Assembly: GCA_027028245.1 (NCBI GenBank)
Contig: JALVJO010000048.1
Location: forward strand, 1 to 40,611
Reading direction: 5' to 3'
DNA length: 40,611 bases
Source of the DNA: Deltaproteobacteria bacterium
GTDB lineage: Bacteria; Desulfobacterota; Dissulfuribacteria; Dissulfuribacterales; QOAL01
The notes under the pieces were generated by a model. That model was not told the origin of the DNA, made no database searches, and saw only the letters and a program-made list of their open reading frames with translations. Within the stretch, counting starts at the first letter, position 1. Each line of letters starts with the position of its first letter. Below, in pieces: positions 24,671 to 33,232 of this stretch. The position numbers and the translations under genes are program-made.

Positions 24671-26332
24671 ATAGCAAAAATTTACGGAAACACAAAAGGA
24701 CTTTCACCCACTCAGAAAAAGGCCCTGGAAAGACTCTACAGAAGGCGGATTCCCACAACAGAAATCTTCACTCACGATACTGCCAGGGCCATGACCGAAC
24801 TTTCCCAGATGCTGGCCCGCCAGGTCGCTGTCCTTGTAAACAGAAAGGGTATCATTACCCATGTCATAGCTGGAGACCGCCACGGCATATTCATTCCGGA
24901 TCTCCAGTATTACAGAAGGGGCAATTACAGGCTCAAGGGCTTGAGGTGCGTACGCACCAGCCTGGGAAGGAACCACGGCATCACCAGCGAAGACCTGACA
25001 GACCTCGCCCTGCTGCGCCTGGACGCCATGGTGGTTATTGACGTTCAAAAAGGACTGCCGGGCAGGCTTCACCTGGCATATCTCCTGCCTCCAGGTCCTG
25101 ACGGCCGAAAGTGGGAGGTTGAGACCTACAGCCGCGTCTCAGACCTGCCCTTCCAGTTTCACCATTTCATAAGGGAACTTGAACAGGAAATAGAACGTCG
25201 CTGCAGGCTGAAGGCCCTTGAGGGTGCGGAGGAAAGGGCAATTCTGGTCCATGCCGGCCCAAGGGGAGAGGAATACGCGGAAAGAAGCCTGGATGAACTC
25301 CAGAGGCTGGCGGAAACAGCCAACGTACAGGTGGTAGACAAGATCTACCAGAGGATTTCCCGTTACAATCCGGCACATCTTATCGGCAAGGGCAAGCTCA
25401 AGGAAATACTTGTTTCCGGCCTGTATCTCGGCGTTTCCATGGTTGTCTTTGATCAGAACCTGAGCCCCAGGCAGGCCAACAATATTGCCAGGATGATGGA
25501 TCTTAAGATCATAGACCGTACCCAGCTGATACTTGACATCTTTGCAAGACATGCAAATACCAGGGGAGGCAAAATCCAGGTGGAATTGGCCCAGCTGCGC
25601 TATACACTACCCAGACTGGTGGGCAAAGGCACAGCAATGTCGAGGCTCATGGGAGGCATAGGCGGAAAAGGCCCGGGTGAGACTAAACTCGAGGTGGACA
25701 GAAGGAGGATAAAACAAAGGATAGGATACCTGGAACGTGCCCTGAAGGGCCTTGAGAAGCAGCGCTGCCAGATGAGAAAGAGAAGGGGCAGAGAAAGGAT
25801 CCCGGTATTTTCCATAATTGGATATACCAACGCCGGAAAATCAACACTCCTGAACCGCCTGACAAAGAGCAGTGTACTGGTTCAAAACAAACTGTTTGCC
25901 ACCCTTGATCCTTCTACCAAGGCCCTGTTTCTGGAAGGCCAAAAGGTCCTTTTGTCAGATACCGTGGGATTTATTACCAACATGCCGCCTGATATAAAAA
26001 CAGCATTCAAGGCCACCCTGGAAGAACTGGAGGATTCTTCTGCCTTCATACATGTAGTGGATGCATCCAGTCCCTTTATTTACGAGGAGATGGCTGCCAC
26101 AGAAGACCTGCTGGAGGAGATGGGGCTCCTGGAAACGCCGAGGATTACCGTACTCAATAAGACGGACCTGCTGGATGATAAGGCCCTGAAAAGGATTTCC
26201 AGGATCAAGGGCATAAGATTATCTGCAAGGACAGGCAGCGGAGTTCAGGAACTCATGTCGGCCATCCGGGACCACCTGCCAAGAGGTCCCAGGACAGCTG
26301 ACTCTGCTCTTCCTAGGCTGAACTTTGCCTGA
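24671..26332 (+). CDS. hflX: GTPase HflX, apparent non-canonical ATA start
   Basis: About 553 residues. HflX is a ribosome-binding GTPase that splits stalled or hibernating 70S ribosomes under stress. It has the HflX N-terminal domain, the Gly-rich linker GGIGGKGPGETKLEVDRR, and the G domain with G1 GYTNAGKST (about 384-392), DTVGFI and NKTD. The first ATG is at 24791, but family-like sequence AKIYGNTKGLSPTQKKALERLYRRRIP is encoded upstream of it. The frame is closed by TAG at 24665-24667; ATA at 24671, 10 nt after GAGGT, is the best-placed start and gives the usual HflX N-terminus. An ATG at 24644 is in frame but separated by that TAG. A sequencing error (ATG read as ATA) is an alternative. 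Confidence 0.85.
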   Translation: MAKIYGNTKGLSPTQKKALERLYRRRIPTTEIFTHDTARAMTELSQMLARQVAVLVNRKGIITHVIAGDRHGIFIPDLQYYRRGNYRLKGLRCVRTSLGRNHGITSEDLTDLALLRLDAMVVIDVQKGLPGRLHLAYLLPPGPDGRKWEVETYSRVSDLPFQFHHFIRELEQEIERRCRLKALEGAEERAILVHAGPRGEEYAERSLDELQRLAETANVQVVDKIYQRISRYNPAHLIGKGKLKEILVSGLYLGVSMVVFDQNLSPRQANNIARMMDLKIIDRTQLILDIFARHANTRGGKIQVELAQLRYTLPRLVGKGTAMSRLMGGIGGKGPGETKLEVDRRRIKQRIGYLERALKGLEKQRCQMRKRRGRERIPVFSIIGYTNAGKSTLLNRLTKSSVLVQNKLFATLDPSTKALFLEGQKVLLSDTVGFITNMPPDIKTAFKATLEELEDSSAFIHVVDASSPFIYEEMAATEDLLEEMGLLETPRITVLNKTDLLDDKALKRISRIKGIRLSARTGSGVQELMSAIRDHLPRGPRTADSALPRLNFA

Positions 26333-26430: not shown

Positions 26431-26510
26431 CGGCAAAAGGAGACAAAAAAACAAAGGAGAACATTCACGTAATACCTGAATTACAAAAAATATTTTGTCG
26501 CCTTTTGCCG
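26431..26510. repeat. Imperfect inverted repeat between convergent hflX and the selenoprotein gene
   Basis: Arms 26431-26448 and 26493-26510 (18 nt, 17 paired, starting CGGCAAAAGG) are separated by 44 nt. Inside, GTAAT (26469-26473) can pair with ATTAC (26480-26484). It lies in the 191-bp space between two convergent genes, so it may serve as a bidirectional terminator; the loop is long for a classical one. A small mobile remnant is an alternative. The rest of the space (26333-26430) holds only an imperfect palindrome around 26403-26421. Confidence 0.55.
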
Positions 26511-26523
26511 TGCAAAATTTGGG

Positions 26524-26727
26524 TTAAATTCTATCCACCCTTGCAAAGGCCAGGGCCTCGGCAAGTTCTTCTGTCATCTCGCCTGAATAATCCCTTATGG
26601 CAAACATGCTTCCGCAGCCCTGACACCTCAGGGCGATATTTCTTCAGCGCCTGCAAAGTTCCAGTTCTTGCCCGCACCGCCTGCACTTCAGGCCTGTACC
26701 CTTTTTCTGTCTGTTGAAAAAATACAT
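26524..26727 (-). CDS. Small dual-CxxC selenoprotein (in-frame TGA read as selenocysteine)
   Basis: 67 residues if the TGA at 26646-26644 (codon 28) is read as Sec. The frame has CRRC at residues 15-18, then CRR-U-RN, then CQGC at 35-38, and ends in an acidic tail and TAA. Both flanks keep coding character with paired CxxC motifs, as in a zinc ribbon or thiol-redox protein. To my recollection this resembles a family annotated as dual CXXC motif small (seleno)protein in deltaproteobacteria, in which the Sec position is held by Cys in other members. A hairpin starts 9 nt after the TGA (see the SECIS entry). ATG lies 12 nt after the fabD stop, so it is the last gene of the murA-moaA-gcvH-fabD unit. 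The biochemical role is unknown. Confidence 0.8.
26617..26634 (-). promoter_or_regulatory. Candidate bacterial SECIS hairpin
   Basis: On the mRNA, GCCCUG pairs perfectly with CAGGGC around the loop AGGUGU, starting 9 nt after the in-frame UGA. The E. coli fdhF SECIS has the loop AGGUCU on a stem beginning about 11 nt after its UGA, so both spacing and loop (GGU) fit SelB recognition. The element lies within the coding sequence, as bacterial SECIS elements do. Confidence 0.72.
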
Positions 26728-26739
26728 TTTATCAGATGG

Positions 26740-27687
26740 TTAGTCCTTGTTGTTCCCTAAGAGATTTGCAATATCCTGCGGATTTTCCACGCTGAAAAAA
26801 TCCACGTCCTCAGCGTCAAGACATTTCCTTGCCAGGTTGGTCAATACCTTCTTGGGACCAAGTTCTATAAAAGTGCGCACCCCGTCCCTGTACATGTTGT
26901 TGATAATATCAAACCACCTCACAGGAGAACATATCTGCTCAGCCATAAGTTCCCTCATGCGAGTACCTGAAGCTTCCGGTTCAGCGGTTACATTGCTGTA
27001 AACGGGAATACGGCCGTCCTCAAAGGAGATACCAGCCAGCACTTCCTTGAATCTGTCAGCTGCAGGCCTCATCAGGGGGCTGTGATATGCACCTGACACC
27101 TTTAAGGGCACGGCACGCTTCCCAGCGTCTTTTACAGCCCTGCACAGCTTGCTGACCAGCTCTTTCTCTCCTGTTACAACAATCTGCTCCCTGGAGTTGT
27201 GATTGGCAAGGGCCAGTACACCCTGAGCATCTGCCGTGACCTTGTCAACGAGCACTTGCAGGCCGTCCCGGTCAAGGCCGATTACGGCTGCCATGGCTCC
27301 TGGATTCAGGTCTGCGGCTTCCTCCATGAACTCACCCCTTGATCTGACAAGGCGAAAGACATCCTCTGTATTCAGGATTCCGCAAGCCCAGAGGGCTGGA
27401 TATTCACCAAGGCTGTGGCCGGCTGCTGCATGCGCCTCTATCCCGGCTTCACGGACAGCCTTGCAGATCAAAAGGTCCACTGCAGTAAGACAAGGCTGGA
27501 GGTTTCTGGTCTTTGTAAGTTCCGAAATCGGTCCTTCCAGGCAAAGAGAAGCCACCGGGACCCCGGAGATCTTTTCTGCAGTTTCAAACAGCCTTCCGGC
27601 TTCTGGAAGCTCTCTGAGAAAATCCTTGCCCATACCTACGTACTGGGAGCCCTGGCCCGGGAAGAGAAAGGCAGTTTTTCCCGTCAT
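26740..27687 (-). CDS. fabD: Malonyl-CoA:ACP transacylase FabD
   Basis: 315 residues. It starts TAFLFPGQGSQYVGMG, the acyltransferase signature, and has the nucleophile elbow GHSLGEY (Ser-92 by my count), followed later by GAYHSPLM with the catalytic His and by PVYSNVTAEP. It loads malonyl groups onto acyl carrier protein for fatty-acid elongation. ATG overlaps the stop of the GcvH-like gene by 4 nt. No other fab gene is adjacent, which is unusual since fabD commonly sits with fabH, fabG and acpP. Confidence 0.95.
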   Translation of the reverse strand: MTGKTAFLFPGQGSQYVGMGKDFLRELPEAGRLFETAEKISGVPVASLCLEGPISELTKTRNLQPCLTAVDLLICKAVREAGIEAHAAAGHSLGEYPALWACGILNTEDVFRLVRSRGEFMEEAADLNPGAMAAVIGLDRDGLQVLVDKVTADAQGVLALANHNSREQIVVTGEKELVSKLCRAVKDAGKRAVPLKVSGAYHSPLMRPAADRFKEVLAGISFEDGRIPVYSNVTAEPEASGTRMRELMAEQICSPVRWFDIINNMYRDGVRTFIELGPKKVLTNLARKCLDAEDVDFFSVENPQDIANLLGNNKD

Positions 27688-28136
27688 TCTTCCATTACCT
27701 CCAAGGCATCATCTTCGTCCTCGAGCTGCTCGCTTTCTTTTATTTTCAGTTCTTCAACGAATTTTTCATATTCGTCCGGCCCCATGAGATCATCAAGCTC
27801 CTGGGGCTGGGCAAGCGCAAGTACCATGAGCCAGCCGTCATCATAGGGATCATCATTGATCATTTCCGGAGAATCGATCAACTGATCATTGGCAGAAAGC
27901 ACCCTGCCTGAAAGCGGACAAAAAAGCTCTGTGACCTCTCCCATGGAATTTTCCACTGTAGCAAAGCAGTCGGTTTCAACAAATTCATCCCCGGCCTCGG
28001 GCACATCTACGGACACTATTGAGCCAATCCTTTCCTGCCCGAAATCCGTTATGCCTACCACTGCCTTTTCCTGCCTGTCATCTGGTTTTACCCATATATG
28101 CTCCTCGGTATATAGGAGATCTTCAAGGATAATCAT
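27684..28136 (-). CDS. GcvH-like lipoyl-domain protein lacking the lipoylation lysine
   Basis: 150 residues with the whole GcvH framework: LYTEEHIWVKPDD, VVGITDFGQERIGSIVSVDVPEAGD, LFCPLSGRVLSANDQL, and ENP/VNEDPYGEGWL-like MINDDPYDDGWLMVLAL. GcvH carries lipoate on the Lys of an ESVKAAS motif. Here the region reads VENSMGEVTE (61-70), with Met at or beside that position, and no Lys occurs in the loop, so it cannot be lipoylated in the standard way. An acidic C-terminal tail (134-150) is added. No gcvT or gcvP is in the window. It may be a non-catalytic homologue with a structural or regulatory role. It overlaps fabD by 4 nt and follows moaA by 22 nt. Confidence 0.85.
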   Translation of the reverse strand: MIILEDLLYTEEHIWVKPDDRQEKAVVGITDFGQERIGSIVSVDVPEAGDEFVETDCFATVENSMGEVTELFCPLSGRVLSANDQLIDSPEMINDDPYDDGWLMVLALAQPQELDDLMGPDEYEKFVEELKIKESEQLEDEDDALEVMEE

Positions 28137-28158: not shown

Positions 28159-29163
28159 TCAACCGCCAATCGATGACATCTGCCTGCGGCATGACGGCAA
28201 GTTCTGCTCTTGCACAAGGTATCTGGCGGGCTTTCGGGCTACTGCTTCCAGCAGAAACCCTGCTAACTCCTGGTCAGTTATTTGCCCTCGGAGCATGTCC
28301 CTGAGAAGCACCTCCCTGTCAGAGAAGAGGCACAGGCGGAGTCTTCCGTCAGCAGTAATTCTAAGCCGGTTGCATTCACTGCAGAAGCTGTGACTGAGAG
28401 GGCTTATGAAGCCGATGCCTCCCTTTCCTCCCTTTAGGGTGTAAAGTTCGGCAGGGCCTGAATTTTTTTTCCTTCTTTTGGGCTCAAGTTTGCCGTTTTT
28501 TTCCTCAATAATCTCTTTTGCCTCGTCGGAAGACAGAAAATATCCCTCACCCCAGTTGGACCCCTTGCCCACAGGCATAAATTCTATAAAGCGCACTTCA
28601 ATGGGATATTCCGCAGATAAACGGGCGAAATCCGGGATTTCATCGTCATTTTTCCCTTTCATCATGACGAAATTGATCTTTACTGGTGAAAACCCCAGCT
28701 CCATGCACCTGTTTATACCGGCCCAGACGTTTTCAAAAAGATCCCTTCCGGTAATCCCATGGAAACGATCCCTTTTCAGGGTATCAAGGCTTATATTGAT
28801 ATGCCTTACTCCCAGGGCAAAGATGTTTTCTGCCAGGGCTGGAAGCTCGACCCCGTTGGTTGTCAGGCAAAGCTCCTCCACCCCTTCCAGCAGGGAAATG
28901 CCTTCCATGAGCCTGATGACGTCCTTTCGCACCAGGGGTTCCCCCCCGGTAAGACGTATCTTCCTGACCCCCTGCCTGGCAAGCACCCTTACCAGGCGAA
29001 TGATCTCCTCGAATCGAAGTATGTTCTCATGGGGCATCCAGTTGAAATCGGCCTGGGGCATACAGTAGAAGCAGCGCAGGTTGCACCTGTCCGTGACGGA
29101 AAGGCGAAGGTATGTCATCTTTCTGCCAAAACTGTCAATAAGTTCAGGATACGCCGATTTCAT
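28159..29163 (-). CDS. moaA: GTP 3',8-cyclase MoaA
   Basis: 334 residues from ATG at 29163, one base after the murA stop (a TTG at 29181 is an in-frame alternative). The radical SAM motif CNLRCFYC gives Cys-27, -31 and -34. The second cluster lies in the C-terminal part (FCSECNRLRITADGRLRLCLF), and the protein ends in the double glycine that is essential in MoaA. It converts GTP to 3',8-cyclo-7,8-dihydro-GTP, the first step of molybdopterin synthesis. Molybdenum or tungsten enzymes such as formate dehydrogenases are often selenoproteins, which fits the selenoprotein gene downstream. Confidence 0.96.
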   Translation of the reverse strand: MKSAYPELIDSFGRKMTYLRLSVTDRCNLRCFYCMPQADFNWMPHENILRFEEIIRLVRVLARQGVRKIRLTGGEPLVRKDVIRLMEGISLLEGVEELCLTTNGVELPALAENIFALGVRHINISLDTLKRDRFHGITGRDLFENVWAGINRCMELGFSPVKINFVMMKGKNDDEIPDFARLSAEYPIEVRFIEFMPVGKGSNWGEGYFLSSDEAKEIIEEKNGKLEPKRRKKNSGPAELYTLKGGKGGIGFISPLSHSFCSECNRLRITADGRLRLCLFSDREVLLRDMLRGQITDQELAGFLLEAVARKPARYLVQEQNLPSCRRQMSSIGG

Positions 29164-29164
29164 G

Positions 29165-30436
29165 TCAGACAGTCTCTTCAATCTTTACACGCTTCATCAC
29201 TGCCCCGGCAGAGCAAAGCTTTTCATCCATGTTTTCGTATCCCCTGTTCAGGTGATTGAGGCCCCCCACAACGGTCTTGCCCTTTGCAGCAAGACCTGCA
29301 AGGACCAGACAGGCACTTGCCCTCAGATCAGTGGCCATAACAGGGGCCCCGGCAAGGGAGGAGACGCCTCTGACAATGGCGCTCCTGCCCTCAATTCTTA
29401 TATCAGCGCCCAAGCGCCTCAATTCAGCCACATGCATGAAACGGTTTTCAAATATGGTCTCGGTTATCACGCTCAAACCCCCGGCCAAGGCCATCAACAC
29501 CATTATCTGGGCCTGGAGATCTGTCGGGAAACCGGGATAAGGAAGGGTCTTGACGTCAACGCTCTTGAGTCTGCCTCTTCGTTTCACCCTGATGGTGGTC
29601 TCGTCCAGGATATCGATCACCAGGCCTGCATTCTTCAGCTTTTCCAAAACGGCATCGAGATGGGACGGCACTGTATTTTCAAGTACCAGCTTCCCGCCGG
29701 CGGCACCTACTGCCATGAGATAGGTTCCGGTCTCTATCCTGTCTGGTATTATCTTCCAGTCCACAGGGCTGAGCTGCCTTACGCCTTCGATTTTCACTGT
29801 TTCACTGCCAAGGCCTTTTATATGAGCACCCATCTGCTGCAGCATCTGTCCCAGTGCCACCACCTCTGGTTCCCTGGCTGCATTTTCAAGGGTTGTCACA
29901 CCGCTTGCCAGACAGGCCGCCATCATGAGGTTTTCCGTAGCAGTAACAGAAGGGATGTCAAAATAGATCCTTGCGCCTGAAAGACGTCTTGCCCGGACCT
30001 CTACATAGCCTTCCCTGAGCTTGAGCTTTGCTCCCATGAGCTCAAGGCCCTTGAGGTGAAAATCTATGGGACGGGCTCCGATGGCACAGCCTCCCGGCAG
30101 TGCAACCTTGGCTCTGCCGAGCCCGGCGGTCAGAGGCCCCAGTACCAGCACGGATGCCCTCATCATTCGGACAAGCTCGTAAGGCGCCTCGTGACTGGAA
30201 AGACCGCTTGAATCAACAAGGAGGGCACCAGTTTCTTCCTTTTTACATTTAAAACCCAGTTCCTCAAGGAGTCTTATGAAGATATTTACATCCTCCAGGC
30301 AGGGCACATCTCTTAGACGAAACGCCCCCTGGGCAAGAAGGGTGGCAGCAAGCATGGGAAGAGCCGCATTTTTCGCCCCGCTGATCCTTATGCTGCCCTT
30401 GAGGGAATGACCTCCCTGAATTTCGAGCTGTTCCAT
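29165..30436 (-). CDS. murA: UDP-N-acetylglucosamine 1-carboxyvinyltransferase MurA
   Basis: 423 residues from ATG at 30436 (MEQLEIQGG..., the usual MurA start; the open frame extends to 30490 without homology). It transfers enolpyruvate from PEP to UDP-GlcNAc, the first committed step of peptidoglycan synthesis. Key features: SGAKNAALP (Lys-22, Asn-23) and [12 protein letters not shown] with the catalytic Cys at 117, the residue that fosfomycin alkylates. It heads a compact unit murA-moaA-gcvH-like-fabD-selenoprotein. The 222 bp upstream, to the secDF stop, show no gene. Confidence 0.97.
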
Positions 30437-30658
30437 CACTGGACTTTTCAAAATAACAGGCGGCTTCTGGAAATTGTGCTGAATCTGCAACTGCTGATAA
30501 TCACCGTATATTTTTTACTCCTTGTGCTACGGCCGGTTTATCATTTTCGCCCCCCAATTCTGGAAGCAGGAGGCACCGGCTGCTTAAGCGTCGATCAGGA
30601 TGAATCACATACTCTATCTTCCTTCATCCCGCCGTGCCAAAGGCAAGGGTATCTGCTG

Positions 30659-33232
30659 CTATTTCGGGGCCTTGCCCTTGTGCCAGATATAGACTATCGG
30701 GCTTGCAACAAATACCGACGAATACGTACCCACTATGATCCCCAGCATGAGGGCCAGGGCAAAATCATGTATGACCACACCTCCGAAGAAATACAGAGAC
30801 AAAACAACGATAAGGGTGGTCACTGAGGTGATTATGGTACGGCTGAGCATCTCGTTGACGCTCCTGTTTATTATTTCTGCAAAGGAAAGCTTCCTGTGCT
30901 TCTTAAGGTTTTCCCTTATCCTGTCGAACACCACCACTGTATCTGTGAGCGAATAGCCGGCCAGGGTGAGAAGGGCCGTTACTATGAGAAGGGTGATCTC
31001 CTTGTCCAGGATATAAAACACCCCCAGCACTGCCAGGACATCGTGAAATGTGGCAATTGCCGCTGCCACACCAAAGCTGAAATTAAACCTGAAGGCCAAG
31101 TATCCTATGATGCCTGCAAGGGAGATAAGGATGGCGGTTATGGCCTTTTTCCTGAGCTCCCTGCTCACCGTTGAGCCGATCTCGGTCTTGCTCTCGATGC
31201 TAAAATTATAGCCGGGCATGCCCTTTTGAAGGGCGCTTGTAATGCTTGCCTCTATATCTCCCACAGTGGCCACAGATTTCTTCACCCTGACTATCAGGCT
31301 GTTTTCCTTGGGAACTTCCTGAAGGGCATACCCGGAAAGTCCGGCCTGATGGAGGGCAGCCCTCACCTTTTCAAGGCCAAAGGGTTTGTCAGCCCTGTAC
31401 TGAACCATGGTACCGCCGGCGAAGTCCACACCGAGGTTTGCCGCCCCCCTGTTGATCTGTACAAAGGCAAAGATGCCCGTGGCTACAAGGACTGCCGAAA
31501 TGGCCAGGGAAATATTCCTCTTCCCTATGAAATCTATACTTGTCTTCTTGACTATCTGCATAAAAGACAAGTCCTTGAGGGCCTTCTTGTAAAGCAGGAG
31601 GTCGTAAACCCACCTTGTTGCATAAATAGCCGTAAAGAGGTTGATGATGATACCTGCAGAAAGAGTCACTGCAAAACCCTTGATGGGGCCGGTCCCAAAA
31701 AGGAACAATGCAAGGGCTGTTATGAGGGTGGTGACGTGGGCATCCACAATGGTCCAGAAGGCCTTGTCGTACCCTCCGTCTATAAATGCCTTGAGAGGCT
31801 TGCCCAGGGCCTTTTCCTCGCGCATTCGTTCAAAAATGAGCACATTGGAATCAACGCCCATTCCAATGGTCAATATGATACCGGCAATACCCGGCAGCGT
31901 CAGGGTGGCCTGGAACAGAGCCAGCACTGCCATGAGAAATACCAGGTTCAACAGCATTGCTATATCGGCGATGAAACCGGAGAGCCTGTAATAGACCACC
32001 ATGAAAAGGATGACGAAACATGCACCTGCTATGCCGGACAGAAGCCCCTTCTGGATGGAATCACGCCCCAGGGAAGGGCCGACCGTGACGTTTTGAATGA
32101 TCTTTACCGGGGCCGGCAGGGCACCAGCTCTTAGCACAATGGCCAGATCTGCCGCCTCCTCGTGGGTAAATGATCCCGAGATCTGGGCATGACCGCCTCC
32201 GATCTTTTCACGGATCACCGGGGCGGAACGTACTATCCCGTCCAGGACAATTGCCAGACGCTTGCCCACGTTTTCCTCAGTGATCTTTTCGAAGATCCTG
32301 GCGCCTCTGTCTGTAAGATCCAGGGCGACATAAGGTTCATTGTAGTTTCCGCCTATACGGACATGGGCAGTTTTTACCGCATCTCCTGTCATGAGGGTCT
32401 TGTCCTTGAGGAGAATGGGAACGTTGCTGACCCTGCCTGTCTGCGGATCAACGTCCTTCAGAAAATAGATCTTGTCCCCCCTGGGGATCTGACCTTTCAA
32501 AACTGCATTGAGCTGGTTTACATCATAGTGGGCAGGAAGCCTTCCGCTCTCCACAGCCTTTCTTATCAGGCTTCTGAGGTCAACGGCTGCATCGTCATCA
32601 ACCAGTTTGAATTCCAGCTGAGCCGTCTGGCCAATGAGCTTCAGTGCCCTGTCCGGATCCTTTACGCCAGGAAGCTGGACTACTATTTCCTCTTCGCCCT
32701 GGCGTACGATTACCGGCTCAGTGACACCGAACTGGTCTATCCGGTTCCTGATGATTTCCAGGGATTGTTCAACTGCATGTTCCCTTATAAATTTTTCTTC
32801 CTTTTCGGAAAGGGTCAAGGTGATTGTGGGAAATCTTGCCTCTTCATTGATATCCTTTATCTTAAGATCCGGAAAGTCTTCCTTGATAACCTCTTTTATC
32901 CTTTCAAGGGCACTCTTGTTGGGAATGGCCAGGAGTATCTCGTCAGGATTTGCGCTCTTCCTCTTGACCACAGTTATGTTCTGCCGCTTCAAGGCGTCTT
33001 TCAGATCCTGGCTGTAGAGCTCTGCTGCATTTCTGACTGCCTGATCTACATCCACCTTGAGGATGAGATGCATGCCACCTTGAAGGTCGAGGCCGAGTTT
33101 AAGGCCTTCCTGATATACGTATTTCTTAAACCATTGCGGCGTGTTTGGATAAAAGGACGGTATGACCAGAACTACTGAAGCCGCAACGAGAAACGCTAAT
33201 AGGGCAAATTTCCATCTCAAGGCCTTAGGCAT
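30659..33232 (-). CDS. secDF: Protein translocase subunit SecDF (SecD-SecF fusion)
   Basis: 857 residues. The SecD part (1 to about 545) has the first helix, GLDLQGGMHLILKV at 47-60, the large P1 periplasmic domain and five further helices (GIAGIILTIGMGVDSNVLIFERMREE in TM4). The SecF part (about 565-857) starts at ISLAISAVLVATGIFAF, with GVDFAGGTMVQYR and YSLTDTVVVFDRIRENLKKHRK. SecDF uses proton-motive force to complete Sec-dependent protein translocation. In many proteobacteria secD and secF are separate; here they are continuous with no stop. yajC, often just upstream, is not in the 467 bp before the start. Confidence 0.97.
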   Translation of the reverse strand: MPKALRWKFALLAFLVAASVVLVIPSFYPNTPQWFKKYVYQEGLKLGLDLQGGMHLILKVDVDQAVRNAAELYSQDLKDALKRQNITVVKRKSANPDEILLAIPNKSALERIKEVIKEDFPDLKIKDINEEARFPTITLTLSEKEEKFIREHAVEQSLEIIRNRIDQFGVTEPVIVRQGEEEIVVQLPGVKDPDRALKLIGQTAQLEFKLVDDDAAVDLRSLIRKAVESGRLPAHYDVNQLNAVLKGQIPRGDKIYFLKDVDPQTGRVSNVPILLKDKTLMTGDAVKTAHVRIGGNYNEPYVALDLTDRGARIFEKITEENVGKRLAIVLDGIVRSAPVIREKIGGGHAQISGSFTHEEAADLAIVLRAGALPAPVKIIQNVTVGPSLGRDSIQKGLLSGIAGACFVILFMVVYYRLSGFIADIAMLLNLVFLMAVLALFQATLTLPGIAGIILTIGMGVDSNVLIFERMREEKALGKPLKAFIDGGYDKAFWTIVDAHVTTLITALALFLFGTGPIKGFAVTLSAGIIINLFTAIYATRWVYDLLLYKKALKDLSFMQIVKKTSIDFIGKRNISLAISAVLVATGIFAFVQINRGAANLGVDFAGGTMVQYRADKPFGLEKVRAALHQAGLSGYALQEVPKENSLIVRVKKSVATVGDIEASITSALQKGMPGYNFSIESKTEIGSTVSRELRKKAITAILISLAGIIGYLAFRFNFSFGVAAAIATFHDVLAVLGVFYILDKEITLLIVTALLTLAGYSLTDTVVVFDRIRENLKKHRKLSFAEIINRSVNEMLSRTIITSVTTLIVVLSLYFFGGVVIHDFALALMLGIIVGTYSSVFVASPIVYIWHKGKAPK

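Follow-up and report, generated by a model that had tools for sequence, protein, structure and literature searches.

The window, a stretch of DNA 40,611 nucleotides in length, carries on its minus strand a short reading frame (26524-26727) that runs from an ATG at 26727-26725 to a TAA at 26526-26524 and is interrupted once, by a TGA at 26646-26644. The sequence-only reading had described a frame broken by this codon alone, which was exact, and had placed CxxC motifs on either side of it. Translation of the frame gave a product of 67 residues plus the stop, MYFFNRQKKGTGLKCRRCGQELELCRRURNIALRCQGCGSMFAIRDYSGEMTEELAEALAFARVDRI, in which the TGA (26644-26646), read as selenocysteine (U), is residue 28. 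The two motifs lie in the same frame as C15-R-R-C18 (26674-26685) and C35-Q-G-C38 (26614-26625), and a cysteine three residues ahead of the UGA creates a CxxU motif, C25-R-R-U28 (26644-26655). We conclude below that this frame is very probably a true selenoprotein gene of the NCBIfam family NF041197, of a form that we call A (RRU type). On the minus strand immediately downstream of the UGA lies a hairpin resembling a bacterial SECIS element (bSECIS; 26617-26634).

Upstream on the same strand we found fabD (26740-27687), which ends 12 nt before the start of the selenoprotein gene, then a gene for a GcvH-like protein without the usual lipoyl-lysine (27684-28136), moaA (28159-29181), murA (29165-30490), and secDF (30659-33232). 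The gene had been proposed to be the last of a murA-moaA-gcvH-like-fabD unit; this order was confirmed, with secDF ahead of murA. Outside the unit, hflX (24791-26332, plus strand) is the convergent downstream neighbor. The lipoylation segment of GcvH usually reads ESVKAASD, and that of the GcvH-like protein reads ENSMGEVTE, with no lysine, followed at the C-terminus by an acidic tail. The orthologues that were aligned share the lysine-free segment and the tail, with the exception of one (L054) that reads ENMKAEVTE.

With Cys substituted for Sec, the product scored 54 bits against NF041197, the "dual CXXC motif small (seleno)protein" family, whose curated cut-off is 40, so that the family named in the sequence-only reading proved to be the right one. 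The alignment covered all of the profile (positions 1-53 of 53) and residues 15-67 of the product, and thus crossed the UGA, as was to be looked for in the search proposed there. Even a six-frame reading in which the stop was retained scored 45.8 bits.

A single-protein scan of the genome contigs did not find relatives of the gene; a search with the family HMM did, with matches in 53 of 99 related genomes, nearly all of them with exactly one TGA inside. Those related genomes that are publicly named are metagenome-assembled Deltaproteobacteria or Thermodesulfobacteriota. The genes extracted from these genomes fell into two forms: form A, to which the gene in the window belongs, with RRU, RTU, or similar around the Sec codon and a C-terminus that is mostly DR[IL], and form B, with GRU or GKU. 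A comparison with hhalign showed the forms to be homologous (probability 98%, E 7.5e-14). At the Sec column, form A had UGA in 36 of 38 genes and a Cys codon in 2, and form B had UGA in 41 of 43 and Cys in 2. A sample of 297 genomes from the phylum contained further form A genes with Cys and no stop, spread over several other families, and in one family (f50) one genus carried Cys and two others UGA. Two variants were seen among the relatives. In the match regions of L164 and L165 the first cysteine pair is C-x-C rather than CxxC, with UGA retained at the Sec column, and in L167 and L172, which belong to one family, a GRU-form gene runs into a C-terminal extension of about 110 residues.

Across 30 aligned form A proteins the columns of Cys15, Cys18, Sec28, Cys35, and Cys38 were invariant, with Sec and Cys counted as one. 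Cys25 is not conserved family-wide: a cysteine occupies position -3 in 27 of the 36 UGA-bearing form A relatives and its equivalent is missing from the other 9. The broad family alignment was too divergent for back-translation, and a closer alignment was used in its place. Among 14 close form A relatives, pN/pS was 0.25 before the UGA and 0.33 after it, while the part after it, read in either of the shifted frames, gave 1.1 and 1.6; these values are uncorrected and rough, with synonymous sites near saturation. An antisense frame of 70 amino acids on the plus strand (26505-26717) is open in the window, but most relatives have stops in their antisense frames and the conserved protein is the minus-strand one, which leaves almost no chance that the antisense frame is the real gene.

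Another objection is that UGA also serves as a normal stop in this genome, so that the frame might encode only a peptide of 27 residues or be a decaying pseudogene. Homologues that end at codon 27, or that share no similarity beyond it, would have spoken for a stop of this kind. What we observed was UGA or Cys at the column, with similarity across the family and purifying selection both persisting past it to the C-terminus. The frame contains no further stop and orthologues exist with a Cys codon at that position; we regard termination at the UGA as very improbable.

The genome encodes SelA, SelB, SelD, and a tRNA-Sec with a UCA anticodon, in agreement with the earlier proposal that the cell has the complete SelA/B/C/D set; the presence of SelA was non-discriminating across the genome set. 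The selD gene of this genome (L136; C120:23164-24087) also contains an in-frame UGA, which makes SelD another selenoprotein; the N-terminal segment concerned reads ATASGUAAKIG. Given what is established about SelD, we infer that the cell must decode UGA as Sec in order to make it.

The hairpin after the UGA was present as it had been described, a perfect 6-bp stem beginning 9 nt past the UGA (26634-26629 paired with 26622-26617) with the loop AGGUGU (26628-26623). The minimum-energy fold added one A-U pair, giving a stem of 7 pairs (GCCCUGA/UCAGGGC) closed by the loop GGUG. The apical loop contains a G, as is expected of a bacterial SECIS, and the hairpin would be a putative SelB site. A search of the window at Rfam gathering thresholds gave no match, and hence no curated SECIS family applies. 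Over 41 nt the hairpin had a folding energy of -16.0 kcal/mol (z -3.6), and 2 of 200 dinucleotide shuffles were equally stable. Taken alone, it was borderline against synonymous shuffles weighted by codon usage, which preserve the protein and the local codon usage (z -1.7, with 5% equally stable).

Across relatives the signal was clearly beyond chance. The mean z over 36 form A UGA sites was -1.49 against synonymous shuffles, with 33 of the 36 negative, although these sites are related and a p-value drawn from them is not independent. The stem of 7 pairs formed in 84% of cells of an alignment of 32 UGA-bearing form A sequences, and 5 of its 7 pairs showed compensatory changes. Its covariation score was 0.335, against 0.187 for shuffled alignments, none of which reached the observed value in 500 trials, and registers slid along the alignment scored at most 0.18. 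Form B has a separate hairpin, further 3', with 91% of cells paired; it was more stable than synonymous shuffles at 35 of 41 UGA sites, which are likewise related, so that formal p-values overstate their independence. At the four Cys-codon sites from both forms the excess stability was absent (mean z -0.17, with 2 of 4 more stable than synonymous shuffles).

Any recoding of the UGA would open the frame, and the codon could in principle be read as another amino acid, such as Trp, or by a near-cognate mixture. The residue that orthologues substitute is Cys, however, the genome holds the full Sec machinery including the tRNA, and the covarying hairpin follows the UGA whereas the Cys-codon sites lack excess stability; decoding as some other residue is accordingly very unlikely. 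Together, the family match across the UGA, the Sec machinery, the UGA/Cys column, and the covarying hairpin support the identification of the frame as a selenoprotein gene; all of the computational checks suggested in the sequence-only reading pointed the same way. SelB and Sec-tRNA(UCA) would decode the UGA at 26646-26644 as Sec, with the hairpin 9 nt downstream assisting, to yield the 67-residue protein, which is presumably translated together with fabD.

The family is already known among the small selenoproteins of sulfate-reducing bacteria, and the gene in the window is an additional member of it. A 2026 review enters NF041197 twice, as OS_HP3 (motif RxU) and as hypothetical protein DW (motif GxU) (PMC13188914). 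The first report of OS_HP3 concerned the delta symbiont of Olavius algarvensis, and the protein is listed in PMC13188914 and PMC9312934; DW was named in the deep-Sep paper of 2025, which assigned it no function (PMC12013277). Matching by motif, we read form A as OS_HP3 and form B as DW. The protein in the window resembles OS_HP3/NF041197 in size, in its two CxxC pairs with Sec or Cys between them, and in its RxU motif. Nothing essential differs, although the window member has CxxU, with Cys at -3, follows fabD, and ends in VDRI where many members end in CDRI or CDRL. With DW it shares a small dual-CxxC architecture and Sec at the homologous column; unlike it, form B has GRU or GKU rather than RRU or RTU, lacks the DRI tail, and has a long C-terminal helix.

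We also examined where the two forms reside. FabD was encoded immediately upstream at 19 of 39 form A loci, usually within a secDF-murA-moaA-gcvH-like-fabD order, and in most close relatives the secDF-murA-moaA-gcvH-fabD order precedes the gene. Beyond the taxonomic order to which the window belongs, the form A neighbors, named by eye, were wholly different (pyrE, alaS/recA, truA/argJ, and similar), and because they change so completely the link to fabD looks positional rather than functional. We therefore set the gene neighborhood aside as a clue to what form A does, the neighbors outside that taxonomic order being unrelated housekeeping genes.

The genome from which the window comes carries, outside it, a second, paralogous UGA gene of form B (C109:44645-44773; L085:6001-6129), which scored 36 bits against NF041197, below the cut-off of 40, and so would be missed by that family. 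A dsr gene lay within 6 kb at 32 of 43 form B loci and at no form A locus. We named the dsr genes by eye from their sequences, and TIGR02064 confirmed dsrA next to many form B loci (for example G000:C109:39055-40275). In most genomes of the order the form B gene sits between a TPR gene and the 3' end of dsrMKJOP, near dsrAB/dsrD, and is encoded on the opposite strand (L085 and most of L086-L123). Co-occurrence of form B with DsrA is uninformative, as dsrA is present in nearly all members of the order, and physical linkage alone is informative here. At the form B locus, what was suspected to be a second hidden selenoprotein in the space between two genes turned out to be an ordinary open frame. 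We found no mention of a link between form B and dsr in the literature that we looked at, and it may nonetheless have been reported.

Structure prediction with AlphaFold2 gave form A a strand at residues 21-27, a turn, a strand at 30-35, and two C-terminal helices, with Sec28 at the turn, an arrangement consistent with a zinc ribbon, at low confidence (pLDDT 66); for form B (pLDDT 82) Sec was again placed in a hairpin turn. Searches of solved structures returned weak, generic zinc-ribbon matches, the best to Rpb9 (Z 3.6), and the Pfam family Zn_ribbon_6 scored 19.6 bits, under its cut-off of 25. Structural zinc ribbons of the Rpb9 type have the CxxC-hairpin-CxxC layout in common with the window protein, with weak fold matches (Z ≤3.6), but they carry no Sec, they are parts of far larger assemblies, and a sequence relationship to them is not established. 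Most likely, a single zinc would be held by the two CxxC pairs in a zinc-ribbon fold, with Sec28 probably positioned in the turn between two strands. In this lineage the resolving thiol would probably be Cys25 of the CxxU motif, which could join Sec28 in a selenenylsulfide.

Of the functions that we considered, that of a small selenol/thiol redox or sulfur-handling protein comes out first, and we hold this assignment with about even confidence. A different role, which concerns function only and is compatible with the protein being a selenoprotein, would make Sec28 an extra metal ligand, or a sensor in a zinc ribbon that binds protein or RNA, rather than a catalyst of redox or sulfur-transfer chemistry. 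The weak structural matches, to zinc ribbons of RNA polymerase subunits, ribosomal proteins, ATCase, and topoisomerase, are in keeping with a ligand or sensor, as are the housekeeping neighbors and the absence, among the 30 aligned form A sequences, of a conserved second redox residue outside the CxxC pairs. Against it, Cys is the only residue seen replacing Sec, as is usual for nucleophilic selenols, and the predicted turn, modeled at low to medium confidence, positions Sec28 away from the CxxC knuckles. We consider a ligand or sensor role possible and the less probable of the two. In a more speculative reading, this order of dsr-bearing Deltaproteobacteria would carry two Sec-bearing zinc-ribbon paralogues. 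The selenol of form B might act in sulfite reduction by the Dsr pathway, for instance by relaying sulfur or in repair around DsrC/DsrMKJOP, and form A might perform analogous thiol chemistry for a housekeeping target; we think this rather unlikely as it stands.

Ordinary gene calling would truncate the gene at 26524-26727 at its UGA or overlook it, and the locus represents a clean, evolutionarily tested case of a hidden selenoprotein found from raw sequence. The family to which it belongs is widespread in the dsr-bearing bacteria of the phylum, and for one of its branches, form B, the position of the loci next to dsrMKJOP and dsrABD supplies a concrete pathway to test.
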